Both the position numbers and the translations under genes were made by a program. DNA of 64,000 bases, from positions 496,001 to 560,000 of the forward strand of contig JANQRY010000003.1 of the NCBI GenBank assembly GCA_028284345.1. The letters are read 5' to 3'. Numbering within the stretch: position 1 is the first letter of the stretch; the number at the start of each line of letters is the position of its first letter. This stretch comes from Hyphococcus sp. Its GTDB lineage: Bacteria > Pseudomonadota > Alphaproteobacteria > Caulobacterales > Parvularculaceae. Below are positions 14,956 to 35,225 of the stretch, one piece after another. The notes below the pieces were generated by a model. That model was given only the letters and a program-made list of their open reading frames with translations. It searched no databases and had not been told where the DNA came from.

Positions 14956-14966
14956 TTTCCTGAAAT

Positions 14967-14998
14967 AAAAATCCCCGGCGCGATGGCCGGGGTTTTTA
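14967..14998 (+). terminator. Rho-independent terminator after the M23 gene
   Basis: Stem CCCCGGC (14973-14979) / GCCGGGG (14986-14992), followed by TTTTT. An A-run precedes the stem, so it can also act on the minus strand, where the flippase gene ends about 100 bp away. Confidence 0.85.
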
Positions 14999-15099
14999 TG
15001 CTGCCTCCTAAAATCCGGTGCAAGCGGGTTTCGGTTAAAGCTGGAGCCAGCGCCGATACTCATCTCAATTCTACATTAAGGAAACGCAAAAGAGCATGC

Positions 15100-16638
15100 T
15101 TAAGAAACGCTGTTGCGAAATCGCCGTAAGCGGATGTTCGCAGCGTTTACTTGGTTAATTGCAACACTTTCGATGGCGTCCGGCGCGCCTTCTATTCGCC
15201 ACAATGTCAAAACCGTAATGAAATAGAGGCCGGCGCCGGCAATCGCGTCAACCATCAGCCGCGCGGCGAGCAGCCAATCGTCGATGGTCGCAACGTGATC
15301 GCGCAAGACGATAAAATACAACCCCATGACCGCTACGCCGGCGAGACTGCGCCGCGCGCGCCAGAGCGGTTCAAAGGGCGAGCCGCCGCTGAGCCGCGCA
15401 TAAAGACCGGCATTGAGCGATGCGATAACCAGAAGCCCGACGGCGCAGGCGATCGCGGCGCCAAGGAGGCCGTAAAAATACGCCGCAGCGACAAAGATCG
15501 GCATGCGAATGAAAAAGACGAGGACTTCTCTCAAGAAAATCAACCGTGCGCGGCCCATGGCCAGAGCATAGGCGTTGGTGGCGTAGAATATGACGGCGAG
15601 CCCCGCCGCGGGGCTGAAATATTGCAGCATCAGCGCCGCGCGCTCCCACCCGGCGCCGAGCAGCAGGGCCACAAGGTCCGGCGCGATAAACGCCACACCG
15701 AAGGACGCCGGCATGGCGATGAAAGCCAAGGCCTCCGCGCTGCGCAAATAGGCGCGTCTCATAGCGCCGGCGTCGCCCTGAAGTTCTGAAAGACCCGGAT
15801 AAACCGCGCGCGCCATGGGAATGGCGATTTCCCCGCTCGGCAGGGACGCGATGGACCCGCCGACAAAGAACGCGCCGACGTCAGCCGGGCTTACGAACTT
15901 ACCAAGAAACAGGACATCGAGCTTGTTGTTGAGCGCGGCGACAAAGCTGAGCCCGGCGAGCCATCCGGCAAAGCCGCCGATTTCCCTCGCCGCCGCGAAG
16001 GAAAGACGCGGCCGGTATGGGCGCAGCACCCAGGACATGACCATCTGCGCGAACGTGCCGGCGACCAAACCCAGAATGATCGCCCAATAGGTTCGGAAGA
16101 CAAGGGCGATTGCGATCGATACGGCGACGCCGAGCAGTTTGTCGGCGGCCTCGAGCCAGAACTGCTTTGAGAAATCAAGCTCGCGCTCAAACTCAAAAAA
16201 GCGCGGGTTCATCAGCGCGTGGAGAAGCGGAACGACGCTGATCCCGAAAAACACCACTGTTGCGCGCGGGTCGTTGTAGAAATTATCCGCCAGCAGCGCC
16301 GCAAACAGCATGACCGCCGTCACGACCAGACCGCGGATCAGGGAGATCGTGAACAAGGTGTCGTATTGTTCGCAGCCGGCGTGCCGGAATTTGACGACCG
16401 TGCGAGACACGCCGATGTCGGTGATGTTTTGCAGAAGCTGCATCACCGTGACGCCGATGGCGACCAGACCGAAATCCTCCGGCACGAGAAGCCGCGCCAG
16501 GATCAGCGTGTTGATGAGACCAAGGGCGCGCACGACGACGCGCCCGCCGATCATCCACGCGGCGCCGCGCATGACGCGCCCTGTCAGCGAGGGTTTCTCG
16601 GGCGCCGCAACGTCTATTTCACCGGCGCCGATGCTCAT
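15100..16638 (-). CDS. Oligosaccharide flippase family protein (Wzx/MATE-like)
   Basis: 512 aa with 12-14 hydrophobic helices. The N-terminal GAAWMIGGRVVVRALGLINTLILARLL followed by PEDFGLVAIGVTVMQ is the hallmark of the polysaccharide transport family (MOP superfamily). Start set at the ATG that overlaps the upstream hydrolase stop by 4 bp (ATGA). It is the last gene of the NRPS-PKS operon, so it probably moves a lipid-linked or otherwise polar product, or a sugar conjugate, across the inner membrane. A role specific to the assembly-line product is inference. Confidence 0.9.
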   Translation of the reverse strand: MSIGAGEIDVAAPEKPSLTGRVMRGAAWMIGGRVVVRALGLINTLILARLLVPEDFGLVAIGVTVMQLLQNITDIGVSRTVVKFRHAGCEQYDTLFTISLIRGLVVTAVMLFAALLADNFYNDPRATVVFFGISVVPLLHALMNPRFFEFERELDFSKQFWLEAADKLLGVAVSIAIALVFRTYWAIILGLVAGTFAQMVMSWVLRPYRPRLSFAAAREIGGFAGWLAGLSFVAALNNKLDVLFLGKFVSPADVGAFFVGGSIASLPSGEIAIPMARAVYPGLSELQGDAGAMRRAYLRSAEALAFIAMPASFGVAFIAPDLVALLLGAGWERAALMLQYFSPAAGLAVIFYATNAYALAMGRARLIFLREVLVFFIRMPIFVAAAYFYGLLGAAIACAVGLLVIASLNAGLYARLSGGSPFEPLWRARRSLAGVAVMGLYFIVLRDHVATIDDWLLAARLMVDAIAGAGLYFITVLTLWRIEGAPDAIESVAINQVNAANIRLRRFRNSVS

Positions 16639-17480
16639 GACGCACCCCCGTCGCGCGCGGCCGGGAAATACCGGCCGAGCCATGCGTCAATATGGGCAAT
16701 CAGCGCTTTCTGGGCCGCCAGTGTCGAAAATGTATGGTCCGTATGCGGCATGGCTTCGACATCGATCCTGCCGTCAAAATCGTAGTCCGCGAATGTCTCA
16801 AAGAAATGCGCCGGCTTCGAGACATGGCGGCGCACCAGCCCCGTATAAACGATGAAGATGCGAACGCCGCGATCGACGAGCGTTGTCAGGTCGGCGGCGA
16901 AGGCTTCCTTCGGCGCGACCGGACGGCCCTGTTCAACATGATCGTCGGCTTGATCTTCATTGTTCGCGACATTCGCGTTGTCATCCCGCGCCATCAGCGA
17001 TCTGATCTTGCGCGCCCATCGGTCGGGATCGGCGGCGCGCGCGAACAGATCGGCCGCGGCGGCCCCATCGTTCGGATAGGCGTATGGATCGAGCAAAACG
17101 AGACCGCTGATGCGCGGGTCTTCGACGGCGGCGCGCAATGCGTGGTCCGCGCCTGAACACATGCCGACGGCGACAATGTCGTCCGCGCCGGTTTCATTTT
17201 TCACAACGTCAATCGCCGCGCCGAGATCGGCGATGGCCTGCCGTTCGAAACCAAGGCCCGCTTCCGCCACCGGGCTTTCCCCCTGCCCTGACAAGTCAAA
17301 GCGCAGGCTCGCCGCGGTGAGCGCGCGCGCAAGTTTGACATTCAGTCGGTGCGGGCCAATGCGATGCACGACGCCGGCGTTAAAGAACAAGAGACCTCTC
17401 GCGCATGCGAGCGCCGCGTCGTTACGCAAAACGCCGCTTAACAGGCCGCCGGCGCCGAACTGGACGATCCGTTCCATCAT
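16635..17480 (-). CDS. Alpha/beta-hydrolase fold protein, cysteine at nucleophile elbow (exosortase-A hydrolase 1-like)
   Basis: 281 aa. The hydrolase core is visible: LLFFNAGVVHRIGPHR near the oxyanion strand, LRFDLSGQGES, the elbow GMCSG (106-110) and a late His in MPHTDHTF. The elbow position equivalent to the serine of GxSxG is Cys108, as in dienelactone hydrolases. From memory, this pattern resembles the 'exosortase A system-associated hydrolase 1' family; no exosortase gene is visible here. It overlaps both neighbours by 4 bp. Possible roles are product release, proofreading or acyl transfer for the carrier proteins upstream. Confidence 0.75.
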   Translation of the reverse strand: MMERIVQFGAGGLLSGVLRNDAALACARGLLFFNAGVVHRIGPHRLNVKLARALTAASLRFDLSGQGESPVAEAGLGFERQAIADLGAAIDVVKNETGADDIVAVGMCSGADHALRAAVEDPRISGLVLLDPYAYPNDGAAAADLFARAADPDRWARKIRSLMARDDNANVANNEDQADDHVEQGRPVAPKEAFAADLTTLVDRGVRIFIVYTGLVRRHVSKPAHFFETFADYDFDGRIDVEAMPHTDHTFSTLAAQKALIAHIDAWLGRYFPAARDGGAS

Positions 17481-18289
17481 GATCGCCGTCCCGCCGCATC
17501 GGCAATGTAGTCAATGACGTCCGTGGGAACATAATAGGCGTTCATGGCCTCATTACTGTTCCACGTCATCGACGCCTTGTCATAGCGGTGATAGCGCGCC
17601 GCCGCCCGTTGCAGGGTCTGTTCCTGCGCCGGCGACACCGAGGCGTCCGACGATCCAATCAAATGGATGGCGCGCGCGATTTTTTTGTCGTCCACGAAAT
17701 CAAACCGCCGAAGTTGATCGCGCAACGCATCCGGCAGACAAGCCCCGAGCGCTTCAGTCATTTTTGCCGCCGCAGGCGTGTCGCGCTCAACGCTGGATTG
17801 CGGAACATCCAACGCCTCCGACAGCGCCGCAATATGCGCGCGGCGCAGACCGGCGAGGTAATCGGCGCCGGAAAGAACAGGGTCCCACAGAAACAATTGC
17901 TCAAGCCTCGCACCGGTTTCGCTGGCGGCGCGAAGGGCGACAGCGCCGCCGAGACCCAAACCGATCCAAATAACACGCCGCGCGTCGCTCAGCGCCTCCA
18001 GTTCGTCCTGCGCCATTGCGGCGTCGCGGATCATGCCGTCGAAATCCAGCGCGGCGCAGTCGCCGTCGGAGTCGCCGCTGCCATAATAGTCGAACCGCAA
18101 CACGGACGCGCCGGCGCGCGCCAGCCGTTCGGCGAGTTGCTTGAAAATGCGAAAGGAGCGGACCGCCTCTTCGCCAAAGGGATTGAACAGCAACACCGCC
18201 GGCGCGCTAGGCGTCCGCTTCTCCGCATGGTGGAAAACACCGTATAGTTTGCGGTCGCTATCGCCGAAATGTAATGGCGTCGCGGCCAT
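17477..18289 (-). CDS. Alpha/beta-hydrolase fold protein lacking the serine nucleophile (exosortase-A hydrolase 2-like)
   Basis: 270 aa. The fold is recognisable from LLFNPFGEEAVRSFR, LRFDYYGSGDSDGD and the elbow GLGLGG (110-115). The elbow residue is Gly112, where Ser, Cys or Asp is expected, so the protein may be non-catalytic or use another residue. It resembles the 'exosortase A-associated hydrolase 2' group, which also lacks a classical GxSxG as far as I recall. It lies 57 bp downstream of the peptide synthetase and is coupled to the next hydrolase gene by a 4-bp overlap. Confidence 0.72.
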   Translation of the reverse strand: MAATPLHFGDSDRKLYGVFHHAEKRTPSAPAVLLFNPFGEEAVRSFRIFKQLAERLARAGASVLRFDYYGSGDSDGDCAALDFDGMIRDAAMAQDELEALSDARRVIWIGLGLGGAVALRAASETGARLEQLFLWDPVLSGADYLAGLRRAHIAALSEALDVPQSSVERDTPAAAKMTEALGACLPDALRDQLRRFDFVDDKKIARAIHLIGSSDASVSPAQEQTLQRAAARYHRYDKASMTWNSNEAMNAYYVPTDVIDYIADAAGRRS

Positions 18290-18346
18290 CGTAATTTCCT
18301 CCGGGCCTTTATTCGCCAGCGCAAGCGCCGCCTGACCGCGCCGACA

Positions 18347-21300
18347 TCACGCGGCGACGGGATCCGCGGCAAGCTGTTCCAGACTTTCAAAAATGACTTC
18401 GCGCGGCGAAATCGACAGGCCGATCGCATCGCGCGCCCGCGCAATCATGCGCGCCGCCTGCAACGACTGGCCGCCGAGTTCGAAGAAATTGTCGGTCACG
18501 GAAATTTCAGGCGCATTCAGAATGTCGCCCCAGATATCGGCAAGCGCGATTTCCTGCGGCGTCCTCGGCGGGACGCGGCGCGCCGCCGCGGCGACGCCCG
18601 CCGGCGCCGGCAGCGCCTTGCGGTCGACCTTGTTGTTGTTCGTAAGCGGCAAGGCCGACAACTCGATAAAGAACTGCGGCGTCATATAATGCGGCACATG
18701 CTCGCGCATGAAGCGCCGTAACTCGCTGTTGGTCGCGGACGCGCCGTCCTTGAAAACCACATAGGCGACGATCGAGGCTTCGCCTGATTGATCGTTGCGC
18801 AACGCCGCCGCCGCTTCCCGTACAGCCGGGTATTTGTTCAGCGCCGCTTCGATATCGCCGAGTTCAATCCGGTAGCCGCGGACCTTAATCTGTTCGTCGC
18901 GGCGGCCAAGGATTTCAATCGTTCCGTCCCGGCGCCATCGCGCGTGGTCGCCCGTGTTGTAGATGCGGCCCGCGGAAGGCGCGAAGGGATTGTCGCGAAA
19001 ACGCTCCGCGGTCAGATCCGGCTTGCCCAGATAGCCAAGCGCGACGCCATCGCCGCCAATCCAGAGATCGCCCGCGACGCCCGCCGGCGCCGGCTTGCCG
19101 AAATCATCCAGCACATAAATTTGCGTGTTCTGGATCGGCCCGCCCACATGGATCGTCGACGCGTCTTCAATCCGCGCGCAGGTCGACCAGACGGTTGTCT
19201 CCGTCGGCCCGTACATATTCCAGAGTTCGCCGACGAGGTTCGGCAACCGGTCGGCGAGCTCGGCGGGCATGGCCTCGCCGCCGCAGAGCGCCTTGAGGTC
19301 CGCTTTGCCGCGCCATTCGGCGTCGAACAGAATGCGCCAGGTCGCCGGCGTCCCTTGCAGCACCGTCACATCGCGTTGCTCGATGATGTCGGCGAGGGCG
19401 AACCCGTCCATGCCTTCGTCGTCGCTGGCGAGAATGATTTCCGCGCCGGCCGACAGGGTGACGAACAGTTCAAGCAGCATGACGTCGAACGAGATGGTCG
19501 TGACGGCAAGCAACCGGTCGTCCGGCGCCATGCCGGGTTCGCGCATCATCGCTTCGATAAAATTGCAAAGCGCGCCATGGGAATTTTCTACGCCCTTGGG
19601 GTCGCCTGTCGATCCTGACGTGTAAATGACATAGGCCCGCGCCGCCGCGCGATCGCGCCGGATTGACGGCGCCGTCGCCGGCATGGCGTCGAGTTCGGCG
19701 GCGCGCGCTTCGAGATCGACGACGGGCGCAACGGCGACCAGCCAGTCCTCAATAAGGGGCGTTGTCGTGATGACGGCTTTGGCGCGCGCGTCTTCCAGCA
19801 TGTAGGCAAGGCGGTTTTGCGGAAATCCCGGATCAATGGGCAGCAACGCGGCGCCGGCTTTCCACACGCCGAGGATCGACGCGACCATATCGATCGTGCG
19901 GTCCATATAGACGGCGACGATGTCCCCTTCTTCGACCCCTTCGGCGCGCAGGAGATTGCCGATGCGATTGGAGCGCGATTGCAATTGCGCATAGGTGAGC
20001 GACGCGTCGCCGATACTTACCGCCGGCGCGTCCGGACGGGCGACAGCGGCCTCGTCGAAATAGTCAAAGGCCAGGGCCTCGCGCCGAAAGTCGGTTTTCG
20101 TCTCGTTCCATTCGCACAGCACGCGATAATGTTCCGCAGGCGACATGAGTTCCATGTCGGCGATGCGTTTGTCCGGGCAAGCCAGCACATCGTCGAGGAA
20201 CACCATAAAACAGTCTGCAAGATACGTTGCGCCATCGGCGTTCATGACCGCGGTCGCATAGTTGATCTCGCCCATCGCGCCGTCGCCTGTTTCCGCGATT
20301 TCCAGACGAATATCCGTCGGCGCGCCGCCTGGCGCCATGTCGATCATCTCAAGCGCAACATCGCCGAGCCTATGCGGGCGTTCGGTTTCATTCTGGTATG
20401 TGAACATCGCCTGGAACAGCGGCGTGCGCGATACGTCGCGCGACCCGTGCAGTTCCGAGGCAAGAAACTCTATCGGCGCCTGCTGGCGTTCGAAGACGTC
20501 AAAAAAATTGTCGCGCGTCCGCGTCAGCATCGACAGAAACGGCTCGGCCCCGTCAATCTGCGCGCGCAGGCCAAGCGTATTGCCGAAACAGCCAATGAGG
20601 TCCGCCGCGCCTTCGCCGCGGCGCCCCTGCGTCGGCGCGCCGACGACAATGTCCGATTGTCCCGTTATACGATGCAAAAACGCCTGCCATGCGGCGAGAT
20701 AGACCACGAACGTCGTACACTGACAACGCGCGGCGAGCGCTCGCGCCGCAGCAGCCGTCTTTGCGGATACATCGAAATTGACTGCGCCGCCTTCAAATGT
20801 GAAGAGTTTCGGTCGCTTGACATCGGCGGGCAGCGCAAGAGGCGGCGTCTCGCCTGCGTAGTACTCGCGCCAATAGTCCAGCTCATTTTCCGGCGCGCCG
20901 CTTTCCATCCAGCGCCGATGCCAGGCTGCGAAGTCGGCGTATTGGCGATCCAGCGAAGGCGCGTCCGCGGCGGGGCCGCCTGTTTCCTCAGCGTAAAACG
21001 CCGCGAGTTCGCGCAAGAAAACGTCCCACGAAAGCCCGTCCCAGACAATGTGATGGGGCGCGAAGAAAAAGACGTGTTCACGGGCTGAGCGCCGGATCAG
21101 GCGCGCGCGAAAGACTTCGCCCTGGTCGAGCGCCATCGGCGCATCGCGCCAGGTTTCGAGCGCCGTGACGAGGCCCGCGTCGCTGACGTCCTGCGCGATT
21201 TCCTCTACAGGCAGGTTGACGTCGACCGCTTGCCGATAAGTAACGAACGGTGCGCCGTCGATCACCTCGAAGCGGGCGCGCAGAACGTCATGGCGCTGCA

Positions 21301-21673
21301 CGATGCGGGCGAAGGCGCGAGAGAATGCATCCGTGTCGAGATCGCCGCTCATGCGCCACGCGTTCGCCAGATTATAAAGCGACATCTCCGGGAACATGAG
21401 CTGGTGCGACCAGATCTTTTCCTGCTGATAGGACAATCGCTCGCGCGGTGACCGGACGGCCTTCGGCAAGACCGTCGAAGCAAGAATGCTATCGCCACCC
21501 AGCCTCGCGAGAATGTCGCCTTTGTGATCGCGAATGAAGGCGGCGTCATCAGGAGACAGCAGATCTTTCGGCGCCGATACGCGCAAAGAGTCGCCGTCGC
21601 GCCCGAAGGTCGCGCCGCTGTCGCGCATCCGGCGCAGGAAATCGTCAATCGAATATGTTTGCGCAGGCTGCAT
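18347..21673 (-). CDS. Non-ribosomal peptide synthetase, TubC docking-C-A-PCP
   Basis: 1108 aa. Domains in order: N-terminal TubC-type docking domain (about 7-57); condensation domain with HHIVWDG (207-213); adenylation domain with A3 YVIYTSGSTG (from 681), A5 YGPTE (821-825), A7/A8 YNTGDHARW...GRRDEQIKVRGYRIEL and A10 NNKVDRKAL (1013-1021); PCP with phosphopantetheine Ser1070 in ELGGQSL. Reading the ten-residue specificity code by hand against GrsA gives D-V-L-Q-L-G-M-V-W-K, close to the glycine code D-I-L-Q-L-G-L-I-W-K. There is no thioesterase or reductase domain at the C-terminus. It starts on the last base of the upstream stop (TAATG). Confidence 0.93.
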   Translation of the reverse strand: MQPAQTYSIDDFLRRMRDSGATFGRDGDSLRVSAPKDLLSPDDAAFIRDHKGDILARLGGDSILASTVLPKAVRSPRERLSYQQEKIWSHQLMFPEMSLYNLANAWRMSGDLDTDAFSRAFARIVQRHDVLRARFEVIDGAPFVTYRQAVDVNLPVEEIAQDVSDAGLVTALETWRDAPMALDQGEVFRARLIRRSAREHVFFFAPHHIVWDGLSWDVFLRELAAFYAEETGGPAADAPSLDRQYADFAAWHRRWMESGAPENELDYWREYYAGETPPLALPADVKRPKLFTFEGGAVNFDVSAKTAAAARALAARCQCTTFVVYLAAWQAFLHRITGQSDIVVGAPTQGRRGEGAADLIGCFGNTLGLRAQIDGAEPFLSMLTRTRDNFFDVFERQQAPIEFLASELHGSRDVSRTPLFQAMFTYQNETERPHRLGDVALEMIDMAPGGAPTDIRLEIAETGDGAMGEINYATAVMNADGATYLADCFMVFLDDVLACPDKRIADMELMSPAEHYRVLCEWNETKTDFRREALAFDYFDEAAVARPDAPAVSIGDASLTYAQLQSRSNRIGNLLRAEGVEEGDIVAVYMDRTIDMVASILGVWKAGAALLPIDPGFPQNRLAYMLEDARAKAVITTTPLIEDWLVAVAPVVDLEARAAELDAMPATAPSIRRDRAAARAYVIYTSGSTGDPKGVENSHGALCNFIEAMMREPGMAPDDRLLAVTTISFDVMLLELFVTLSAGAEIILASDDEGMDGFALADIIEQRDVTVLQGTPATWRILFDAEWRGKADLKALCGGEAMPAELADRLPNLVGELWNMYGPTETTVWSTCARIEDASTIHVGGPIQNTQIYVLDDFGKPAPAGVAGDLWIGGDGVALGYLGKPDLTAERFRDNPFAPSAGRIYNTGDHARWRRDGTIEILGRRDEQIKVRGYRIELGDIEAALNKYPAVREAAAALRNDQSGEASIVAYVVFKDGASATNSELRRFMREHVPHYMTPQFFIELSALPLTNNNKVDRKALPAPAGVAAAARRVPPRTPQEIALADIWGDILNAPEISVTDNFFELGGQSLQAARMIARARDAIGLSISPREVIFESLEQLAADPVAA

Positions 21674-24600
21674 TAGAATACGAACTCCTCGCGTTCCGCA
21701 TCGGTATATGATTTCTCAAGGCCATCAATATGCGCCGCAAGCGATCGCAAACTGTCCGCTTCGAAAATCGCGCGGATACCCAGCGCCGGCGCCAGGGTCT
21801 GGCGCAGCCCGGTCAGAAGGCGGGAGGCGTGAATGGAATGGCCGCCCAGTTCGAAGAAATTGGCGTCAATCGGAACGGCGTCGCGGCCCAGCGCCGCGCC
21901 GACGGCGTCAACCAACCCCCGCTCTGTCGCATTCAATGTTGCGGCGCCTGCTTCGGCGAGGGCTTCGTCCTCGCGTTGAACGCGATGGGTTTCGAAGAGA
22001 ACAATATTGGCCTGCGAATGGCCGCTTCGCGGCGCGAGCGCGCCCAGCGCAATCGCCGGATCGCGGACAATCTCTGAGAGGATGGCCGCGTAGTCGTCAA
22101 GCCACCCATCGATGGTGTCCGCGTCGAACAGGTCCGCCGCATATTCGAGATCGATATGCATCGCATCGCCGGCGTCTGCGACGTTAAAGAACAATTCGTT
22201 GCAGACGGCGCGGCGTTCGTTCTCGACGGCGCGGACCGTAACGCCCGCGGTTTCCAGTCCGCGGAAATAGCCGCCGAAATTGAACATCGCCTCGATAAGC
22301 GGTCGCCGCTGTGACGACGGCGCCCTATTGAATTCGCTCGTCAGCGCGCTCAGCGAAAGCTCCTGGTGCTCGAACGCATCAAGCGTCATGTCCTGAACGC
22401 CTTTCGCGAAGGCTTCAAATGTCGGTTCATGATCGACGCGCATGCGAAGCGGCAGGATGTTCACGCAATAGCCGATCGTCTCGACGCCGCGCCGGACCTG
22501 ACCCGCTGCCGGCAATCCGACGACAAAATCCGACCGGCCGGAAAGACGGGACAACAGCGCCGCATAGGCCGACAGGGCGATGCACGACATGGAAACGCCG
22601 AGACCGCGCGCCGCCCCGCGGATATCGTCGCAAAGCGGCGTCGGCAGGGTTCGCCGCGCCGTGGCGCCGCGAAAGGAAAACGCCTCGCCACGCGGCGCAT
22701 CCGTCGGCAGATCCAGCGGCGGCGGGGGCCCGTCCGCATAGACCTGACGCCAGAATTCTGGAACCGGCATCGCCGCCGATACTTGCGAAACATAGTCCGT
22801 AAACGGTGCAATGTCGGACGGAGCAACCCGCTCCCCGGCGACGATGGCGCCGTAGCGGCGCACAATATCGCGGATCAAGAGGTCGGACGAATATCCGTCG
22901 AAGATAAGATGATGGGCGAAGATGACAAATATATGCGCGTCGTCGCTAATTCGGAAAAGCTGCGCGCGGGCGAGCGGACCGTTCTCAAGGTCAAACAGCG
23001 TCGTCGCCTGCTGCTCCAGCCAGGCCTCGATTTTCTTTTGCTGTTCGGCTTCCGAAAGATCGGCGAGATCCGACGTCTCAAGGACGAAACCCGGTTGCTC
23101 GGCCACAAACTGGAACGCGCCGGCGCCGTCGAAACGCAGCCGAAATGCCTCATGATCGTTCATCGCCATGTTGACGGCGTCAGCGAAGGCGTCGCGATCA
23201 AGGGGGCCGTCTATGTGAAAGCGGTCGGACTCATTAAAGGCGCAGGAGGCCCGGTCGCCGAGCTGCGCCGTCCACCAGATCAGATGCTGGCCGGCTGTCA
23301 GCGGCGTTCGCCGGATTGCCGGCGGCGCGGCTGCCGTTTCTTTTGCGGTTGTTGGCAACACGCCGTCCGCCTGCATTTCGAGGATGGCGTCCTTGGCCGC
23401 ATCGATCGCCGCCGCCACGTCGTCATCCGAATGCGCCGCCGTCATGTAACAGGGGAAACCCTCCAGCAGATGTACGCCGCGCTCGCGCATATGATAAAAG
23501 AAGAGCGTCGCGAGGGGCGCGTCCTCATCAACGCGAATAAACATCTGGGACGCAAATTGAAGCACCCGGAATTTAACGCCCCTCTCAGCGAAAAATGCAT
23601 TGAGGTCATCGGCGAACCGCGCGGCGCGCGCGCTCGCACGTTCCTGCAAGGCGGGACCTTGCTCCTTTAGGTATTTTAACGACGCGTACGCAGCGGCGAT
23701 GGCCAAGGGATGGCGCACAAAGGTACCGGCGAAAAACGTAACGCCGGCTTCCGGCTTCGACGCGTCGCCATAGCGCCATGCGCCGCCGTCGAACGTGTCC
23801 ATATATTTCGCGCGACCGGCGACAGCGCCGATAGGCATGCCGCCGCCGAGAATCTTGCCGTAGGTTGCGAGATCGGCCTTGACGCCGAAATATTCCTGCG
23901 CGCCGCCGGGACCGGTGCGGAAGCCGGTGATCACCTCGTCAAAGATCAGGGCGATTTCTTTTTCTTCCGTCAGGGCGCGAAGCGCGTGGAGAAATTCGCG
24001 GGGCTGAAAGTCCGGGCGCCGGCTCTGCACCGGTTCGACCAGCACGGCGGCGATGGAACCGGCCTCGGCCGCGATCGCATCAAGGGCCGCGTCTTCGCCA
24101 TAGTCGAGCACAATAACATTGTCGACAGAACCAAAGGGAATGCCCGGCGCCAGCGGCAAGGTCCGGCGGGCGCTGTTCGGGCCGCCAACGCCGCGGACCA
24201 ACACTTCGTCAAAATTACCGTGATAGGACCCTTTAAAGACGACAATCTTTTCCCGGCCCGTCACCGTTCGCGCAATGCGGATCGCCGCCTGCACCGCCTC
24301 CGAGCCGGTATTGACCCAGCTCGCCCGGTCCATGCCCGTCAGGTCACAGAGGAGTTTCGCCGCCTCGCCCGCCTGCGGGGTCTGCGGGCCGATTTCAAAT
24401 CCGTCGTCAAGCTGCGCGCGCAGCGCGTCCGTGACAAAATCGGCGCGATGGCCAAAGAAATTCGGACCAAACCCGTTCAGAAGATCAATATACTGATTGT
24501 CGTCTATGTCCCAGAGATAGGCGCCTTTGGACCGGTTGACGACGATCGGATACACCATCTCTTTCCACAGCGGGTTGAACCCGGCTGCGGTTCGGGGGTC

Positions 24601-25290
24601 AGCGTGATGGAGGCGATCAGCCTGCGCGCGCTCCTTGGACCGCCGCGTCTTCGCGTTGTAGCGCGCAATGAGCCGGTCCACATGGCGGCGCTGTTCCGGC
24701 GAAAACTCTTTGGGCTTTGCCGCGTCGGCGGTTTGCGGCCCGAAACCGGCCGGCAGCGGCGCTGGCGCAGCGGCGGCCGCTGCGGTCTCCGCTTCAACGG
24801 GCTCCGCCGGTTGCTTTGCCGGGGCCGGAATTTCGGCGGCGCCATTGGCGCGCAAAAACGCAAGCTGTTCGCGCATGAGATCGAGTTGCCGGGCGAACAC
24901 GCTGGCGAGCCCGTCCGTATTATGATTATTCCTGGCCGGCGTCGGGATCTCGACGCGCGGCGCGGTCGCCGGCGCCGTCTCCGGTTCCACGGCCGCGGGC
25001 GTCGGCGCAGGCGTAGCCGGCGTCTGTTCGGCAATCCATGCGGCGAGCGCCGCCGGCGTCGGCAGCTCCGTAATCAACTGCCGGAACGTCACCGGCGTCC
25101 CGAATTCCTTCTGAAACGCCGTCGCCAGTTGGGTGAGAAAAAGGGAGTCAAACCCGAGTTCCAGAAACGTGCTGGCGCAATCAATGTCCGTCTCCGCAAA
25201 GCCTGACAATTCCGCCGTGACGGATGTCAGGCGCGCAAGGATGGCGGCTTCGCGATCGGCCGTTGCTGTCATTGTCCAGGACTTCCCCAT
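21673..25290 (-). CDS. Hybrid assembly-line protein, ACP-aminotransferase-C-PCP
   Basis: 1205 aa. Domains in order: ACP with Ser49 in LGFDSL; Ala/Pro-rich linker; class III PLP aminotransferase (about 240-645) with FDEVITGFR (Asp451) and PLP Lys479 in ATYGKI; condensation domain (about 660-1095) with HHLIFDG (793-799); PCP with Ser1152 in ELGGHSI. The ACP-aminotransferase-C order is that of mycosubtilin/iturin synthetases, where the aminotransferase converts a beta-ketoacyl-ACP to a beta-amine. There is no adenylation domain before the terminal PCP, so that carrier must be loaded in trans, bypassed or used as a transfer point. Start is ATG 25290; a GTG one codon earlier is possible. Confidence 0.92.
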   Translation of the reverse strand: MGKSWTMTATADREAAILARLTSVTAELSGFAETDIDCASTFLELGFDSLFLTQLATAFQKEFGTPVTFRQLITELPTPAALAAWIAEQTPATPAPTPAAVEPETAPATAPRVEIPTPARNNHNTDGLASVFARQLDLMREQLAFLRANGAAEIPAPAKQPAEPVEAETAAAAAAPAPLPAGFGPQTADAAKPKEFSPEQRRHVDRLIARYNAKTRRSKERAQADRLHHADPRTAAGFNPLWKEMVYPIVVNRSKGAYLWDIDDNQYIDLLNGFGPNFFGHRADFVTDALRAQLDDGFEIGPQTPQAGEAAKLLCDLTGMDRASWVNTGSEAVQAAIRIARTVTGREKIVVFKGSYHGNFDEVLVRGVGGPNSARRTLPLAPGIPFGSVDNVIVLDYGEDAALDAIAAEAGSIAAVLVEPVQSRRPDFQPREFLHALRALTEEKEIALIFDEVITGFRTGPGGAQEYFGVKADLATYGKILGGGMPIGAVAGRAKYMDTFDGGAWRYGDASKPEAGVTFFAGTFVRHPLAIAAAYASLKYLKEQGPALQERASARAARFADDLNAFFAERGVKFRVLQFASQMFIRVDEDAPLATLFFYHMRERGVHLLEGFPCYMTAAHSDDDVAAAIDAAKDAILEMQADGVLPTTAKETAAAPPAIRRTPLTAGQHLIWWTAQLGDRASCAFNESDRFHIDGPLDRDAFADAVNMAMNDHEAFRLRFDGAGAFQFVAEQPGFVLETSDLADLSEAEQQKKIEAWLEQQATTLFDLENGPLARAQLFRISDDAHIFVIFAHHLIFDGYSSDLLIRDIVRRYGAIVAGERVAPSDIAPFTDYVSQVSAAMPVPEFWRQVYADGPPPPLDLPTDAPRGEAFSFRGATARRTLPTPLCDDIRGAARGLGVSMSCIALSAYAALLSRLSGRSDFVVGLPAAGQVRRGVETIGYCVNILPLRMRVDHEPTFEAFAKGVQDMTLDAFEHQELSLSALTSEFNRAPSSQRRPLIEAMFNFGGYFRGLETAGVTVRAVENERRAVCNELFFNVADAGDAMHIDLEYAADLFDADTIDGWLDDYAAILSEIVRDPAIALGALAPRSGHSQANIVLFETHRVQREDEALAEAGAATLNATERGLVDAVGAALGRDAVPIDANFFELGGHSIHASRLLTGLRQTLAPALGIRAIFEADSLRSLAAHIDGLEKSYTDAEREEFVF

Positions 25291-28097
25291 CACATCGCTT
25301 TCAGAAGCGCAAGCTGGTCGGCGATAAGGTCAAGCTGCTGATCGATCAGGCCCTCAACCGCGCCGTTTTTCGCGCCGTTAACGCTTTCCGCTTTCACTGC
25401 AACGTCTGCGCCAGAGGCCGCTTGCGCGCCGGCGGGCTCAACCCAGAAACGCTTGCGTTCAAAGGCGTAGGTGGGCAGGGGCACGCGCCGCCGGCGTCCG
25501 ACGGTTAACGCATCCCAGTCGGGCGCGGCGCCATGGGCCCAGAGACGCCCGATCGTTTCGAGCATGGCGGCGACATCGCCGTCCGCGTCGCCGGCCCCCA
25601 GCGCGGGAAACGCCTTCGCAGACGGTCCGAAGATACGGCGCGCGAAACCGGTCAGCGCCCGGCCGGGGCCCAGCTCAACGAAAAGGCGGGCCCGGTCCGT
25701 TTCGCCGGCGGCGCGCAAAGCGTCGCAAAACAGAACAGGGCGCATCATTTCATCGCCCCAATAGTCGGGGTCCGCGAGCGCATCGCCGCGCGCCTTCTCG
25801 CCGGTCAAGCTTGAATAAAAATCTAGTTCGGCGGACGCCATGGTTAACGACGACGCCTTGTCCACAAGCGCTGCTCTGGCCCCGGCCATCATCGGCGAGT
25901 GAAAAGCATGCGACGTTTTCAGCGGCGTCGCGGCGATTCCCTCCGCGTCGAGGTCCCGCATGAGACGGGCGACAGCGTTGTCATCGCCGCTCACGACGCA
26001 GGCGCCCGGCGCGTTGATTGCGGCGATGCTGACGCCGTCCGGCAACCTGCCCCGCAACGCTTCCGCGTCTTCCATGACCGCAAGCATGCAGCCGGGCGGC
26101 TGGGCCTGCATGGCCGCGCCGCGCGCCGCCACCAGTCGGGCGCCGTCTTCAAGGGAAAAAACGCCGGCGGTCGCCGCGGCGGCGAATTCTCCGATGGAAT
26201 GTCCGACGACCCCCGCGGGTTCTACGCCCCAGCTTTTCATCAGCGCGGCGAGCGCGCATTCAATTGCATAGAGCGCCGGCTGCGTATTGGCGGTGTCGGC
26301 GAGCTGGCGCGCCGCCGCTTCCTCTGAAAGATCCGAGTCTTTGTCCCACAGGAGAAAGTCGCGAACGTCGCGGCCATAGTTCTCATCGGCGAGAAATATC
26401 TCCGCAATGCGGTCCACGGTGTTTCGAAAAACGGGTTCGGACCGGTAAAGGTCGCGGCCCATGCCCGGATATTGCGCGCCCTGCCCCGGGAACATGAAAA
26501 TGATTTCCGGCGCCGACGCATCGGCGACGCCTTTGTCGTCCGGGCGCAGCGCATCGCGCAGTTTTGACGCCGCGCCCGCAAGATTGGACGCGACGACGAA
26601 ACGGCGGTGCTCGAATTGCTTGCGGCCGATCCGCAACGTGTGAGCCGCGTCGGCAAGCTCCGTGTCGGGATGATCTTCGAGATGCGCGGCGAGACGCGCC
26701 GCCTGCTCCTCAAGCGCCGCTTCGGAACGCGCGGAGAGAACAATCAGTTCATGGGACCGGCGCGCCGGATCCAAATGTAAGGCCGGGCCTTCTTCGACAA
26801 CAACATGGGCGTTCGTACCGCCAACGCCGAAGGACGAAACGCCGGCGCGGCGGGGCCCGTCTGATTGCCAATGCTGCAGTTCCGTATTGATGTAAAACGG
26901 CGTTTCGGCGAAATCGATTTTCGGATTGGGCGCCTCGAAATGCAGCAGCGGCGGCAGGACCTGATCATTGAGCGCCAGCGACGTCTTGATCAGCCCGATG
27001 GCGCCGGAGGCGCAATCGAGATGACCGAGATTGGCCTTTACCGATCCGAGCGCGCAATATTGCTTCTCGTCCGTGTCCCGACGATAGGCGGTTGTAAGTC
27101 CCGCCGCTTCGATGGGATCGCCGAGCGGCGTCGCCGTGCCGTGCGCTTCCACATAGCCGATCGAGCGCGCGTCGACGCCGCCCATGCCGAGGGCCAGCGA
27201 GATGACTTCCGCCTGTCCGTCGACGCTTGGCGCCGTGTAGCTCAGCTTTTCGCCGCCGTCATTATTCGTCGCATAGCCGCGGATAACGGCGTAAATGGTG
27301 TCCCCGTCCCGCACCGCGTCCTCAGCGCGTTTGAGGAGCACAACCGCGGCGCCGTTTGAAAACACCGTCCCGGCGGCGTTTTTGTCGAAGGGGCGGCAAC
27401 GCCCGTCCGGCGACAACATACCGCCTTCTTTGTAAAAGTACCCTTTGTGTTGCGGCAGCACGATGGTGACGCCGCCGGCGAGCGCCATATCGCATTGATA
27501 GGATTCGATGCTCTGGCACGCCGTCGCAATCGCCACCAGCGACGTGGAACAGGCCGTCTGCAGCGTCATGGCGGGACCGCGCAGGCCCAGCTTGTAGGCG
27601 ACGCGCGTTGCAAGATAATCCTTGTCGTTGCCGAGTTCCGTCTGCAGCGAACCGACCTGGATCGACTCAACGAGCCTGCGGCGGAATTCTTCATCAGAAC
27701 ACAGATTGTTGAGGACGTAGGTGTCCATATAGCAACCGCCGAACACCCCGACGGCGCCCGGATAGCGCGACGGGTCATAGCCCCCGCGTTCCATCGCCTC
27801 CCAGCAAATCTCCAGAAACACGCGATGTTGCGGATCCATGACTTCCGCTTCTTTCGGCAGGTAACCGAAAAAGCGAGCGTCAAACATGTCGATGTCGTCG
27901 AGAACGCCCTTGGCGCAGACATAGTCCCCAGCGTCCGCCTCATCGGCGGAGGGCGGCAATTCGAGATCGTCCGGCGAGAACCGGGTGATCGAGTCAACGC
28001 CGTTTTTGATGTTTTCCCAGAACTTGTCGACATTGTCGGCGCCGGGAAACCGGCCGGCCATGCCGACGATAGCGACGCCTTTCACATCCTCGCTCAT
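25290..28097 (-). CDS. Type I polyketide synthase, KS-AT
   Basis: 935 aa. Ketosynthase triad: Cys183 in TACSTSL, His319 in EAHGTATPLGDP, His359 in ANLGHL. The acyltransferase has Ser634 in GHSIGE and HAFH (730-733), the motif for malonyl-CoA. After PLPTYAFERKRFW the protein ends with a short helical tail (GLIDQQLDLIADQLALL), a likely docking element. It carries no KR, DH, ER or own ACP, so the extension product stays a beta-ketone; the ACP is at the N-terminus of the next protein. Overlaps both neighbours at their start and stop codons. Confidence 0.93.
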   Translation of the reverse strand: MSEDVKGVAIVGMAGRFPGADNVDKFWENIKNGVDSITRFSPDDLELPPSADEADAGDYVCAKGVLDDIDMFDARFFGYLPKEAEVMDPQHRVFLEICWEAMERGGYDPSRYPGAVGVFGGCYMDTYVLNNLCSDEEFRRRLVESIQVGSLQTELGNDKDYLATRVAYKLGLRGPAMTLQTACSTSLVAIATACQSIESYQCDMALAGGVTIVLPQHKGYFYKEGGMLSPDGRCRPFDKNAAGTVFSNGAAVVLLKRAEDAVRDGDTIYAVIRGYATNNDGGEKLSYTAPSVDGQAEVISLALGMGGVDARSIGYVEAHGTATPLGDPIEAAGLTTAYRRDTDEKQYCALGSVKANLGHLDCASGAIGLIKTSLALNDQVLPPLLHFEAPNPKIDFAETPFYINTELQHWQSDGPRRAGVSSFGVGGTNAHVVVEEGPALHLDPARRSHELIVLSARSEAALEEQAARLAAHLEDHPDTELADAAHTLRIGRKQFEHRRFVVASNLAGAASKLRDALRPDDKGVADASAPEIIFMFPGQGAQYPGMGRDLYRSEPVFRNTVDRIAEIFLADENYGRDVRDFLLWDKDSDLSEEAAARQLADTANTQPALYAIECALAALMKSWGVEPAGVVGHSIGEFAAAATAGVFSLEDGARLVAARGAAMQAQPPGCMLAVMEDAEALRGRLPDGVSIAAINAPGACVVSGDDNAVARLMRDLDAEGIAATPLKTSHAFHSPMMAGARAALVDKASSLTMASAELDFYSSLTGEKARGDALADPDYWGDEMMRPVLFCDALRAAGETDRARLFVELGPGRALTGFARRIFGPSAKAFPALGAGDADGDVAAMLETIGRLWAHGAAPDWDALTVGRRRRVPLPTYAFERKRFWVEPAGAQAASGADVAVKAESVNGAKNGAVEGLIDQQLDLIADQLALLKAM

Positions 28098-30124
28098 TGC
28101 AGCGCCTCCCGCATCTCTTTCATGCGCCGCGACTGTTGCGCGCGCGTATGGGCCATGGCGTTCGCCCGCGCGCCCACGGAGGACTCAGCGCGCGCGTCCT
28201 CGTCGCCAAGGCGCCGCGCAAGCCGCGCCGGCGTCGAACACTCAAACATCAAGGTGAGATCGAGCGGACGTTGCAGAAACGCAGCCAAGCGCGAATGGAC
28301 CTGAACCAGATCAATGGATTTTCCGCCCAACGCGGCGAAGGAATCCTCCGCGCCGACAGGCGACACCGCCAGCACGTCTTCCCAGATCCGCGCGATCTCG
28401 CTTTCAAGACCGCGCGCCGGCGCGACGAACGTTGTCTCAAGACTGCGCGGCCTCCTACGTTCCTCACGCGCAGCGCGGACAATCGCGCGTCCGGTCGTCA
28501 GTTCCGTTGCGATATACGACCAGTCGACGACCGGCGCATCGCCTGAAAGGCGCGCCGCCGGTTTTGGTTGCGCGGACGGCGCCGGCGCGCGCGACGGGTC
28601 GAACGTCGCCGCCGCGAGTTTGCCCGCCGCAATCAAATTGCCGCCGTCGCTTGGCGCGCTCTCAAGGAGCACAGCGAGAAATTGGCGCGCCGGCTCATTG
28701 CGCGGGCCCTGCGCGAAGGCAAAGGACGCCTCGCCGACGCCGGCGCGCTTTGCGGTTTGACCAATATGCGCCGCCATTTGATATTCGACGCCGCGACCAA
28801 GGGCGCGGCAGCTCAACGAGAATAGATCGACGGATATCTGATCGGCGCATCGCCGCAATCCAATCACGCCGACGACGCCGTAATCGCCGAAGCGGTCCTT
28901 CGTCGAAACGGCAAAGAGACGATGATCCGGTTCCGCAACCCAGGCGCTGAGTTCTGCTTGCGTAAAGCGTCGCAAAGTCGTGTTGAACTGGTTCGTGCGC
29001 TGCGTCAGTTGGGCGAGTCGCGCGATATTGCCTGCGTCGACGCCGACGATATCCACTTCAAGGCGCAGGCTTTCGATAAAGGCTTTCAAAGTCGGCGCGG
29101 CGTTCGCTTCTTTTTTGCGAGCGGCGTCCTCACGATACATCCGGCGGCGATTGCGGTCTTCCTCAGTCGCCGGCGCCGGATCCAGAAGCCAGAGGTGCTC
29201 GGCGAATTCGGACACCGGCGAGACCGTCGCCGAGATAACGCCGGGCATGCGCGCTTGCATCGCTGCGATTTCGACCGGGTTGTCGTCGAGAAATACGATC
29301 GACTCTTCGGCGAACCCGAATTGCTGTGCGATGGCGGCGAGATTGTCCGCCTTGTCGCGCCAGTTGACGCTGCGCGCGAGAACATGATCGAGCGACAGCG
29401 TCATCTCCGTATGCTGTTCAAATACTGACGCAACATCGTCGTCATTATTTTTGCTCAGGAGCGCGATGGCGACGCCGGCTTCCGACAGCACTTTGAGACG
29501 ACGCTGCAAGGCGGTCGCCGCCTCGTCAATGCGCAAACCCTTTACGCCCTCCTCGCCGACAACGCCGCGCCACAGCGTCTCGTCGCAATCGACCGCCGCC
29601 AGTTTGAGCGGCGTCCGTCGCGCCGCATGGGCGCGCCGGACCAGCTCCGCCGAAAGCGCCGCAAACGCTTCCGGCGTAAAGGCAACCGACACGGCGACGT
29701 CGGCGCGGGCGTCGAACGGCTCCGTCACGCGGTAGCGGTCAAAGATGTCGGCGGCGTCGACAATGGCGCAGCGTTCGTCGAGCGTTGATCGGAACACCGC
29801 GTCCAACGCCGGCGCTTGGCCCTCGCCCCGGTCCGGACAAAGCACGACGACAAACGGCAATCCGGTTGCGTTCATCGCGATTGCGAGGTCCCGGGCAGCA
29901 TCCGCTGCACCGCCAAGATCACTCCATCGCACGAGCAGAACACGCGCGGCGGCGCGTTGATCATTCAGCGCGCTCTCCGGCCTTAACAGTGATTGATAGA
30001 GATTGGCCGCCGGCGTCAGCGAAAACTCTACGCTCGCGCCCAATATGCGCGACCAGAACGGCGCAAAATCATGGAGCGGATCGGCGGTAAAGCTTGCTCC
30101 AATCGCCAGCGTTAACCGGTTCAT
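28094..30124 (-). CDS. FkbH-like HAD-GNAT-carrier protein (glyceryl-type starter loader)
   Basis: 676 aa from ATG 30124; a GTG 7 codons earlier also has a purine-rich site. The N-terminal region is FkbH-like. The HAD-IIIC domain has the nucleophile motif DCDETLW (Asp179, Asp181, Thr183) and DDNP (280-283). A GNAT-like segment follows (about 330-500, RFGDYGVVGVI), and then a carrier domain with Ser603 in LGGKSI. Characterised FkbH proteins convert 1,3-bisphosphoglycerate to a glyceryl thioester on a carrier protein. Here HAD, GNAT and carrier are on one polypeptide directly upstream of the KS-AT, so it probably supplies the starter. The exact C3 unit is unproven. Confidence 0.87.
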   Translation of the reverse strand: MNRLTLAIGASFTADPLHDFAPFWSRILGASVEFSLTPAANLYQSLLRPESALNDQRAAARVLLVRWSDLGGAADAARDLAIAMNATGLPFVVVLCPDRGEGQAPALDAVFRSTLDERCAIVDAADIFDRYRVTEPFDARADVAVSVAFTPEAFAALSAELVRRAHAARRTPLKLAAVDCDETLWRGVVGEEGVKGLRIDEAATALQRRLKVLSEAGVAIALLSKNNDDDVASVFEQHTEMTLSLDHVLARSVNWRDKADNLAAIAQQFGFAEESIVFLDDNPVEIAAMQARMPGVISATVSPVSEFAEHLWLLDPAPATEEDRNRRRMYREDAARKKEANAAPTLKAFIESLRLEVDIVGVDAGNIARLAQLTQRTNQFNTTLRRFTQAELSAWVAEPDHRLFAVSTKDRFGDYGVVGVIGLRRCADQISVDLFSLSCRALGRGVEYQMAAHIGQTAKRAGVGEASFAFAQGPRNEPARQFLAVLLESAPSDGGNLIAAGKLAAATFDPSRAPAPSAQPKPAARLSGDAPVVDWSYIATELTTGRAIVRAAREERRRPRSLETTFVAPARGLESEIARIWEDVLAVSPVGAEDSFAALGGKSIDLVQVHSRLAAFLQRPLDLTLMFECSTPARLARRLGDEDARAESSVGARANAMAHTRAQQSRRMKEMREALQ

Positions 30125-30164
30125 TGCGGGGGCCCCTGCTTTCACATGCCCCCGCGCCGATCAT

Positions 30165-30914
30165 CTAATAGCGGGAGCCTCTTTGCGGCTTTACGCGCAG
30201 AACGTGCAAGTTCGGGGCCGCGAGATCGACGGCGATAGCAGCGCAGTAACCCTCTAAGGGCTTGAAGGCGCGCAGGGCCCAGTCGCGCGCAACGGTGATG
30301 TCGCCGTCGGCCCGTAAGATTTCGGGCCGGTCGCCGGGCTTCAGGGAAACTTCAAAAGCGGCGAGCGGCGCCGAAAGCCCGACCCCCATCGCCTTGACCA
30401 CCGCCTCCTTGCGGGTCCAGCAGTTAAAGAACCCGTCGGCCCACGCCGCGCCGGAGAGCGCATCGAGCGCAGACTGTTCCGCCGGCGAGAAATGCTGGCG
30501 TGCAACTTCGGCGAGATCGTCGCTCATGCGCGCCGCTTCGATATCGGCGCCGAGCGTCGCCGCACTGGAAACAGCGAGCAGTCCCCACCCTTCCGATCGC
30601 GAATAGTTAAAGTTGACGCCGCCGCCTTTCAGCGACGGGCGCCCATTCTCCGCAATGACAAAGCCGAGGTCCTGCGGCGCCGCGTTTTGATAGCGTCCGA
30701 GAATGCGCCGGATCGCGTCGTGCCCGGCGATGAATCGGCGCCGGTCGCGATCAAACCGGAAACGCGATGCGCGCTCGCGCTCTGCGTCGTCCAGAACGCT
30801 CTCGCCCGTGTCTCCTTCCAGGGAAAACAACCAGCAATGAACATCGCTAGCCGGCAATGGGACCGGCGCGCCGTCCAGGCTTTCAACATCTTCACTGATG
30901 AATTCGCTATTCAT
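30165..30914 (-). CDS. 4'-phosphopantetheinyl transferase, Sfp type
   Basis: 249 aa from ATG 30914; a TTG two codons earlier is less likely. Sfp-type motifs are visible: RFRFDRDRRRFIAGHDAIRRIL, GADIE (122-126, magnesium ligands) and WTRKEAVVKAMG (166-177). It installs the phosphopantetheine arm on carrier proteins. It is the first gene of the operon, 40 bp upstream of the FkbH-like loader, and so probably serves the four carrier domains encoded downstream. Confidence 0.92.
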   Translation of the reverse strand: MNSEFISEDVESLDGAPVPLPASDVHCWLFSLEGDTGESVLDDAERERASRFRFDRDRRRFIAGHDAIRRILGRYQNAAPQDLGFVIAENGRPSLKGGGVNFNYSRSEGWGLLAVSSAATLGADIEAARMSDDLAEVARQHFSPAEQSALDALSGAAWADGFFNCWTRKEAVVKAMGVGLSAPLAAFEVSLKPGDRPEILRADGDITVARDWALRAFKPLEGYCAAIAVDLAAPNLHVLRVKPQRGSRY

Positions 30915-34666: not shown

Positions 34667-34883
34667 GATATCCCTCACTTAGTTCGTGTTTTTTACTTTA
34701 TCGAGTGTCGACAAGCCCAAGCGATGATGCGAAACGCGCAATGCTTGGCTCCCGTCGTTGCGCGCATTGTGAGCGCGTCGCACACTGAGACAAGAAACTT
34801 GCGCAGCACCCTCAGCAGAATCTGCCAACGAATTTGTGATTGTGGCTCGGGCGCAACATGGTTAACGCTGCAGGTCGCATAAA

Positions 34884-34939: not shown

Positions 34940-35225
34940 GGGAACTACAGTGTGTCCCGTGTGAGCCAGGAAGCAATTGGGCGTTACTCCCCGGCTCACG
35001 GGTACGTTGAACACCAGGCACCGGAGGGAGCCCGCTGTTCGATCAGTAGACAACCGGCAGGCAAGACTCCTCAATCCGTTGGCGAGTTTTTTGCGACGCC
35101 GGGAGCCGCGAAAGCGGCGAACTGATCGGAATAGTGCGGGCAAGGGCCTTCGTTTCCACGATTTTGGAGCGCGGCGGTCTTGCCGAAACGGGTCTGGGCC
35201 GGAACGGGCCTTATGCCCCGTTTGA
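34940..35225 (+). ncRNA. Hairpin-rich leader or small RNA, family not recognised
   Basis: Several nested pairings can be read on the plus strand. (1) GTGAGCC 34961-34967 with GGCTCAC 34993-34999, extended by CCC/GGG around a 2-nt bulge. (2) GAACA 35009-35013 with TGTTC 35036-35040. (3) GATCAGT 35041-35047 with ACTGATC 35121-35127, enclosing CCGGC/GCCGG (35054/35098), GCAA/TTGC plus ACTC/GAGT, and a GCCGC-GAAA-GCGGC tetraloop hairpin (35105-35118). (4) AAACGGG 35186-35192 with CCCGTTT 35217-35223. No open frame fits. It ends about 55 nt before the sigma factor start, so it is either that gene's structured 5' leader or a separate RNA. I could not match it to tmRNA, 6S, SRP, RNase P or a riboswitch class. 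Confidence 0.45.

Follow-up and report, generated by a model that had tools for sequence, protein, structure and literature searches.

What does a bacterium assemble with a short polyketide and peptide line that is encoded together with its own pair of hydrolases and its own flippase, and where does the product go? The question is raised by eight minus-strand genes at positions 15100-30914 of a 64,000-nucleotide stretch of DNA from Hyphococcus sp. (Alphaproteobacteria; assembly GCA_028284345.1, contig JANQRY010000003.1, positions 496,001 to 560,000). We call the whole stretch the window; it corresponds to G000:C5:496001-560000 in the source genome G000, which comprises 3.4 Mb in 10 contigs. 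Read from 30914 down to 15100, the genes encode a 4'-phosphopantetheinyl transferase (PPTase), an FkbH protein fused to a peptidyl carrier protein domain (PCP), a ketosynthase-acyltransferase (KS-AT), a protein combining acyl carrier protein, aminotransferase, condensation and PCP domains (ACP-AMT-C-PCP), a condensation-adenylation protein with a PCP (C-A-PCP), two proteins of alpha/beta-hydrolase fold (hyd2, then hyd1) and a Wzx-type flippase. The operon and these coordinates are confirmed. The eight gene identities had been listed in an original prediction made from the sequence alone, and they are borne out by the coordinates, by matches to Pfam and NCBIfam profiles that greatly exceed chance and by intact motifs. 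The same prediction had the genes mostly overlapping by 1-4 bp, which is right for just over half of the junctions: four of seven overlap in this way (FkbH/KS-AT 4, KS-AT/AMT 4, AMT/C-A-PCP 1, hyd2/hyd1 4), and, of the remaining three, PPTase/FkbH and C-A-PCP/hyd2 are separated by 19 and 57 bp and hyd1/wzx overlap by 49 bp when wzx is started at its first ATG.

The evidence points to a hybrid polyketide synthase-nonribosomal peptide synthetase (PKS-NRPS) that would build a small, polar beta-amino-acyl glycine peptide, served by a release or transfer pair and a dedicated flippase. The assembly-line part of this model is likely to be right; the model as a whole, including transfer of the chain to an acceptor, is put forward tentatively. 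What is new is that alignments mark the two hydrolases as a conserved pair, one with a putative Cys nucleophile and one without a nucleophile, related to the pair associated with exosortase A. The original prediction did not mention this property. The parts and their chemistry are known; it is the arrangement, together with the shared hydrolase pair and the flippase, that sets this variant apart.

The gene order recurs in relatives, and the genes downstream of FkbH are retained in 13 of the 14 FkbH loci of the same family. FkbH matches over most of the query were found in 14 of 62 family genomes (16 at E <= 1e-30, the extra two, G032 and G023, matching the FkbH domain only) and in 14 of 398 genomes of an order-wide sample, all within this family. 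In a phylum-wide sample 11 of 398 genomes match, including the source genome, G411 and G641 matching nearly the whole query and the other eight matching it partly. KS-AT, AMT, hyd2, hyd1 and wzx are all kept in the 13 family loci, one of which (G016) is split across two contig ends; in the fourteenth, G015, the contig ends inside KS-AT. A PPTase homologue lies beside FkbH in 13 of the 14 loci, G000 included, and was not found for G082. At the phylum level the neighbourhoods of four of the ten non-self matches were viewed (G411, G641, G531 and G449, the G641 contig being only 3.5 kb), and no KS-AT, hyd or wzx is among the best matches of their called frames. The sole FkbH finds of a scan of named genomes, L032 (Acidobacteriales) and L033 (Isosphaeraceae), were rejected as the same cluster: both have FkbH with a C/A-type NRPS but no KS-AT, hydrolase or wzx scoring at least 60 bits.

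Assembly line and predicted residue

KS-AT, ACP-AMT and C occur in hybrid type I PKS-NRPS order with intact active-site motifs. The FkbH protein scores 275.3 bits against TIGR01686 (cut-off 146.65), with the DCDET motif intact and a fused carrier bearing GGKS, and the PPTase matches the HetI model at 3.5e-38, yet under the cut-off of that model. The TACS motif of the KS and the HAFH motif of the AT were spotted by eye (the pattern scan did not flag the KS site and picked up the AT motif GHSIG); HAFH we take to be malonyl-type. No reductive domain is among the Pfam matches of the KS-AT protein. The AMT, for which the best match among NCBIfam and Pfam models is glutamate-1-semialdehyde aminomutase, sits between ACP and C. 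The two C domains (PF00668, 8.9e-75 and 1.8e-85) carry HHLIFDG and HHIVWDG, the A domain matches PF00501 at 3.1e-85, and the four carriers read LGGKS, LGFDS, LGGHS and LGGQS. The Pfam matches of the ACP-AMT-C-PCP protein include no A domain, and those of the two NRPS proteins include no thioesterase (TE) domain.

This anatomy supports the glyceryl starter, single malonyl-type extension, beta-transamination and one or two amino acids that had been proposed for the line, with the chemistry of each step predicted from it. The PPTase would prime the four carriers of the operon, and FkbH would take a glyceryl unit from 1,3-bisphosphoglycerate or 3-phosphoglycerate and load it onto its own carrier; FkbH domains are held to load glycerate onto a carrier in NRPS and hybrid lines (PMC8949500, PMC10099666, PMC9581180, PMC10143770). 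On the ACP that follows, KS-AT would extend this starter by a single malonyl-derived unit to a 3-oxo-4,5-dihydroxypentanoyl chain, which the AMT would convert to 3-amino-4,5-dihydroxypentanoyl. The two C domains would then add two residues, with one glycine-type A domain probably charging both PCPs. The predicted carrier-bound product is 3-amino-4,5-dihydroxypentanoyl-Gly(-Gly), in the best reading the Gly-Gly form.

The choice of glycine comes from pocket codes, which were placed via motif landmarks in 15 A domains of the operon loci. The C-A-PCP protein of the window has the glycine-like code DVLQACMVWK, and D[IV]LQACMVWK is found in 12 of the 15; the two A domains of G013 read DVLQCCLVWK and DILQACLIWK. 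Compared with DILQVGLIWK, the code of DhbF1, the code of the window is identical at 5 of 10 positions, with I/V swaps at two and an L/M swap at one, and differs at 299 and 301; Gln278 and Trp331 are common to both. Gln278, Cys301 and Trp331 occur together in 14 of the 15 domains, and Cys301 is, by motif alignment, presumably equivalent to the Cys site of AlmE and DltA. DhbF1 is described as a glycine domain with the above code (PMC4169593). The DhbF pocket is described as closed by a Trp bonded to a Gln, and for AlmE and DltA, which take glycine and D-alanine respectively, a Cys near the C-alpha is held to exclude larger L-residues (PMC11253843). Among PDB entries the A domain matches LgrA and 8xjz first, each over two stretches, then 5u89 and 4zxh, both given as glycine enzymes (PMC11253843). 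The residue predicted from the code is probably glycine, a refinement of what had been proposed.

The loci differ in how many A domains they carry. Type I, with ACP-AMT-C-PCP and C-A-PCP as in the window, is found in G000, G001, G016, G014, G029 and G074; type II, with a single ACP-AMT-C-A-PCP protein, in G069, G070, G071, G072 and G082; and type III, with ACP-AMT-C, A-PCP and C-A-PCP, in G013 and G077. Because type I falls in two separate clades of the KS-AT tree and keeps the internal C and carrier motifs in all six loci, we read it as the outcome of a redundant A domain lost more than once, its surviving counterpart serving both carriers. The two loci with a pair of A domains show identical codes (G077) or similar ones (G013), and because these codes nearly match, the internal module without an A domain would probably be charged with the same residue as the terminal one. 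In type I loci the lone A domain would probably load the internal PCP as well as the terminal one; stand-alone A-T (adenylation-thiolation) units that complement a defective module in trans have been described (PMC8949500).

Table 1. Genes and domains of the operon, in window coordinates
Feature	Position	Strand	Match or motif
PPTase, Sfp/HetI-type 4'-phosphopantetheinyl transferase	30165..30914	(-)	ACPS PF01648 5.6e-17; ATG at 30914
FkbH glyceryl-loading protein (predicted) with C-terminal carrier	28094..30145	(-)	TIGR01686; PP-binding 2.6e-9; DCDET; LGGKS
FkbH domain	about 28673-29608	(-)	TIGR01686
Carrier of FkbH protein	about 28208-28399	(-)	PP-binding 2.6e-9
KS-AT, presumed malonyl-type AT	25290..28097	(-)	PF00109, PF02801, PF00698
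KS of KS-AT	about 26793-28076	(-)	KS-N 1.4e-73
AT of KS-AT	about 25665-26501	(-)	PF00698 3.2e-57
ACP-AMT-C-PCP	21673..25293	(-)	PF00550 (2 stretches), PF00202, PF00668
ACP of AMT protein	about 25033-25233	(-)	PF00550
AMT domain	about 23467-24552	(-)	aminotransferase III PF00202 4.5e-57
C domain of AMT protein	about 22045-23307	(-)	PF00668
PCP of AMT protein	about 21709-21906	(-)	PF00550
C-A-PCP with N-terminal TubC-type docking domain	18347..21673	(-)	PF18563, PF00668, PF00501, PF00550
hyd2, alpha/beta-hydrolase fold without nucleophile, putative pseudohydrolase partner	17477..18289	(-)	TIGR03101 5.4e-27, under cut-off
hyd1, alpha/beta hydrolase, Cys108 elbow, candidate release/transfer enzyme	16635..17480	(-)	TIGR03100 2.2e-22, under cut-off
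Wzx-type MOP flippase	15100..16683	(-)	PF13440 2.1e-62

Hydrolase pair and flippase

The C-A-PCP protein stops after its carrier, and in all 13 loci the terminal synthetase ends 42-49 residues past the carrier motif, which leaves no room for a TE. Because the synthetases lack a thioesterase domain, hyd1 and hyd2 are the best candidates for release or transfer. In hyd1 the nucleophile elbow reads GMCSG (GxCSG), and Cys108 and His249 are invariant in the alignment of the 13 loci. The hyd2 elbow, GLGLGG in the window, has Gly in five of the 13 and Arg in eight, never Ser. Structure predictions give both proteins an alpha/beta-hydrolase fold and place the elbow at residue 108 of hyd1 and 112 of hyd2 (predicted local distance difference test scores of 82 and 87). 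A tandem pair with a Cys elbow in one member and no nucleophile in the other is present in every one of the 13 loci. A tail of the form [PA]R-x-x-IFE-x-x-x-Q follows each of the 13 terminal carriers and none of the eight internal ones, which would fit recognition of the terminal carrier by a dedicated partner. At the thresholds used, hyd2 and hyd1 have no match in G000 other than the operon copies, 6 of 28 candidates having been scored in the hyd1 search.

Homologues of the pair extend beyond the operon. At E <= 1e-15 hyd1 is found in 15 of 385 genomes of the class, the source genome included, and 10 of the 14 other loci were fetched. All ten have the hyd1 Cys; hyd2 is separate in four and fused to hyd1 in five, with a partial match at the contig start in L130, and its elbow is Arg in all eight whose stretch showed it. 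In G416 the neighbours of a hydrolase pair above the cut-offs are a ligase (TIGR03098), an exosortase-system acyltransferase, a PEP-CTERM protein and a weakly matched carrier-like open reading frame (ORF). G520 carries hyd2 and hyd1 as a fusion, the hyd1 half alone reaching its cut-off, near a ligase under and a pyridoxal-phosphate-dependent decarboxylase above the cut-off; a small ORF near the fused pair had no family match. The pairs, the ligases and the decarboxylase, but not the carrier-like ORF, match exosortase-A-associated families, and an exosortase lies about 42 kb (G416) and 25 kb (G520) from the pair. An exosortase was found in all 14 operon-bearing genomes, the only family genomes searched for it. 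In G000 an exosortase A above the cut-off and an XrtA-type amidotransferase under it lie at L162:9712-13110 (G000:C4), on a different contig from the hydrolase pair. In two of the fused cases from the class-wide search, at L132:6570-10900 and L133:6594-10788, the gene directly follows a GH2-like glycosidase gene.

The flippase had been predicted as a member of the operon, and it is retained in all 13 loci that extend far enough for it to be seen, including the four (G069, G070, G071, G072) where wzx is inverted yet adjacent. It scores 211.5 bits against PF13440 (cut-off 23), and its best NCBIfam models are WzxC-type and TuaB, both under cut-off. The KS-AT, FkbH and Wzx trees share the same main clades, some weakly supported, and for this reason flippase and synthetase appear to have moved together. 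In the FkbH tree G015 (L040), which belongs to the same genus, groups with genus g7 at a support of 0.98, which suggests an operon transfer involving G015. The gene next to wzx in G000 encodes an M23 peptidase that is present in 23 of 28 genomes of the genus, in 20 of these 23 beside a YdbH match. Flanks of about 1.5 kb, or to the contig end, show wzx beside M23 only in G000, G016, G001 and G014. Because M23 is widespread in the genus and wzx adjoins it in four genomes only, the operon looks accessory at this site. The G013 operon lies at a different chromosomal site. An ORF at 14461-15063 was rejected as a gene: it overlaps the M23 gene on the opposite strand, is kept only with M23 and has no family match.

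G000 has two PF13440 matches beyond the operon Wzx. A separate exopolysaccharide (EPS) locus at 47925-63420 of the window encodes a chain-length/kinase-like (Wzc-like) protein, a BBP2-type outer-membrane protein, Wza-like export, a WbaP-like transferase, glycosyltransferases, a pyruvyltransferase and its own Wzx (58250-59728). A search with the operon Wzx at E <= 0.001 does not detect this second Wzx, and we rejected the idea that the operon gene is a displaced copy from the EPS locus. In G029 wzx is immediately followed by a gene for an FGGY sugar kinase (L043:1145-2629), and a homologue is likewise placed in G074 (L063). G082 has a glycosyltransferase gene that overlaps the end of wzx, and G077 has a homologue of that gene next to wzx, along with an epimerase gene, both on the opposite strand.

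Fate of the product

In the proposed model hyd1 and hyd2 would take the chain off the terminal carrier through the hyd1 Cys. Lactone formation is catalysed in ObiF by a TE with a GXCXG motif, and exchange of its Cys for Ser shifts the enzyme mainly to hydrolysis (PMC6668435); given this behaviour, a Cys enzyme would be a reasonable catalyst of transfer or cyclisation. The weakest step follows: the Cys acyl-enzyme would transfer the chain not to water but to an acceptor, for instance a lipid-linked sugar, and Wzx would flip the conjugate. We slightly favour such a lipid-linked glycan conjugate over a free exported metabolite, which is almost as likely. The more specific proposal of a surface decoration, in which the hydrolase pair would move amino-dihydroxypentanoyl-diglycine onto a lipid-linked glycan that is then flipped by the operon's own Wzx, is rather unlikely.

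Several observations weigh against the model. The predicted product has not been observed, the operon has no glycosyltransferase and no acceptor is known. Among annotated flanks, glycosyltransferases adjoin the operon only in G082 and G077, most other flanks being unannotated. An FkbH-like domain alone is no proof of glyceryl loading, as the OocJ module suggests, which contains such a domain and is judged non-functional (PMC4552970). The G082 code, DILQVSEVFK, is not glycine-like, and another residue may be used there. The hydrolases score well under their model cut-offs (hyd1 79.6 bits against 168.45 for TIGR03100, hyd2 95.0 against 202.75 for TIGR03101), NCBIfam lists both models as hypothetical equivalogs, and no function has been assigned to the exosortase-A pair itself; Foldseek searches with hyd1 and hyd2 returned ordinary esterases and lipases as best matches and no functional lead. 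An extra thioesterase-like gene on the other strand, which could release the chain, is present in 8 of the 13 loci (PF00975 tested in two, the others called by similarity); similarity shows none in G000, G001, G016, G014 and G013. Finally, homologues of the operon Wzx occur in 13 of 17 other genomes picked for having a hyd1 or hyd2 match, and lie within about 30 kb of that match in only four (G1096, G778, G520, G416), the other nine being more than 100 kb away or on a different contig.

A free diffusible small peptide, acting as an antimetabolite or signal, is a possible alternative: hyd1 and hyd2 would hydrolyse the chain or close it on one of its own groups, a hydroxyl giving a lactone or the amine a lactam, and the MOP transporter would export it without a lipid-linked sugar. 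Against this, the flippase belongs to Wzx families (PF13440, with WzxC-type and TuaB under cut-off), whose usual cargo is a lipid-linked sugar. The hydrolase pair, moreover, recurs among genes associated with exosortase A, and exosortase systems are described as exopolysaccharide-associated (PMC7293339). The lack of a glycosyltransferase fits a free peptide better, as do the patchy spread over 14 of 62 family genomes and the different chromosomal site in G013, both traits common among secondary metabolites; cyclisation by a Cys TE is known (PMC6668435), and for corramycin, also made with FkbH, a hydrolase and a flippase-like exporter have been proposed (PMC10099666). That one residue only is added in G000, the internal module being skipped or inactive, is improbable: type II relatives do keep a single C-A-PCP, but the internal C and carrier motifs are kept in the six A-less loci and in G000 the line continues into a further protein, which has a TubC-type docking domain.

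Least probable is a metallophore or other imported nutrient-binding compound. It would find its uptake route in the TonB receptor at 31694-34678 and the set of extracytoplasmic function (ECF) sigma factor, FecR and TonB receptor at 35180-40023, and, in G001, G016 and G014 (L035, L036, L039), in genes beside the operon for a B12-type TonB receptor, a binding-protein-like protein and an ATP-binding cassette (ABC) ATPase. Yet the receptor at 31694-34678 and that of G001 score best with B12 receptor models (under cut-off), not siderophore models, and homologues of the window receptor are labelled beside the operon only in G000, G001, G016 and G014, other large flanking proteins being unidentified. 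Pfam and NCBIfam matched no catechol or hydroxamate enzyme in the operon. The window receptor has a homologue of 94% identity in G016 and long matches of about 31% in G001 and G014. A BtuC-like permease is also found in G014, with a homologue in G016; the importer families were profile-tested in G001 and G014 only, with scores under cut-offs.

Comparison with known systems

The operon encodes a compact pathway with a product predictable almost to its formula, and it recurs in several related genomes, which makes the product attractive for isolation work. The pathway could also help to clarify the role of the exosortase-A-associated hydrolase pair and whether Wzx flippases can serve assembly-line products. 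Our literature searches, which joined FkbH or NRPS with aminotransferase, flippase or exosortase, returned no paper that covers all the features of any one combination, and none on an exosortase A system-associated hydrolase; five papers do mention both exosortases and nonribosomal peptides.

Vioprolide, corramycin, cystomanamide and suomilide/varlaxin likewise use FkbH loading in an NRPS or hybrid line and, as far as the published accounts describe, hold the FkbH module inside a longer line; in the operon, by contrast, FkbH is a separate starter protein that would feed KS-AT and AMT, the line would add one or two residues and no TE domain is present. For the AMT module we take the ACP-AMT-C beta-amino acid modules of the MycA/iturin type as the parallel: there too the AMT lies between ACP and C, whereas the operon has a separate KS-AT and a predicted dihydroxy C5 chain in place of a fatty chain. 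Exosortase-A hydrolases 1 and 2 (TIGR03100, TIGR03101) resemble hyd1 and hyd2 in forming a tandem pair with a Cys in one and none in the other, by a tandem and elbow criterion of our own drawn from these alignments. In both G416 and G520 such a pair has an A-type ligase close by, joined in G416 by the carrier-like ORF. The operon pair differs in its scores under the cut-offs, in apparently serving a PKS-NRPS and in being on a different contig from the exosortase A of its genome. The operon A domain would, by its code, share with AlmE and DltA a small-residue pocket with a Cys near the C-alpha (PMC11253843); these two enzymes activate one amino acid for the modification of surface glycans, whereas glycan transfer by the operon is only putative. 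If the surface-decoration proposal were true, the operon would amount to a more complex relative of AlmE/DltA-type aminoacylation, and a function would be found for the orphan hydrolase pair of exosortase A.

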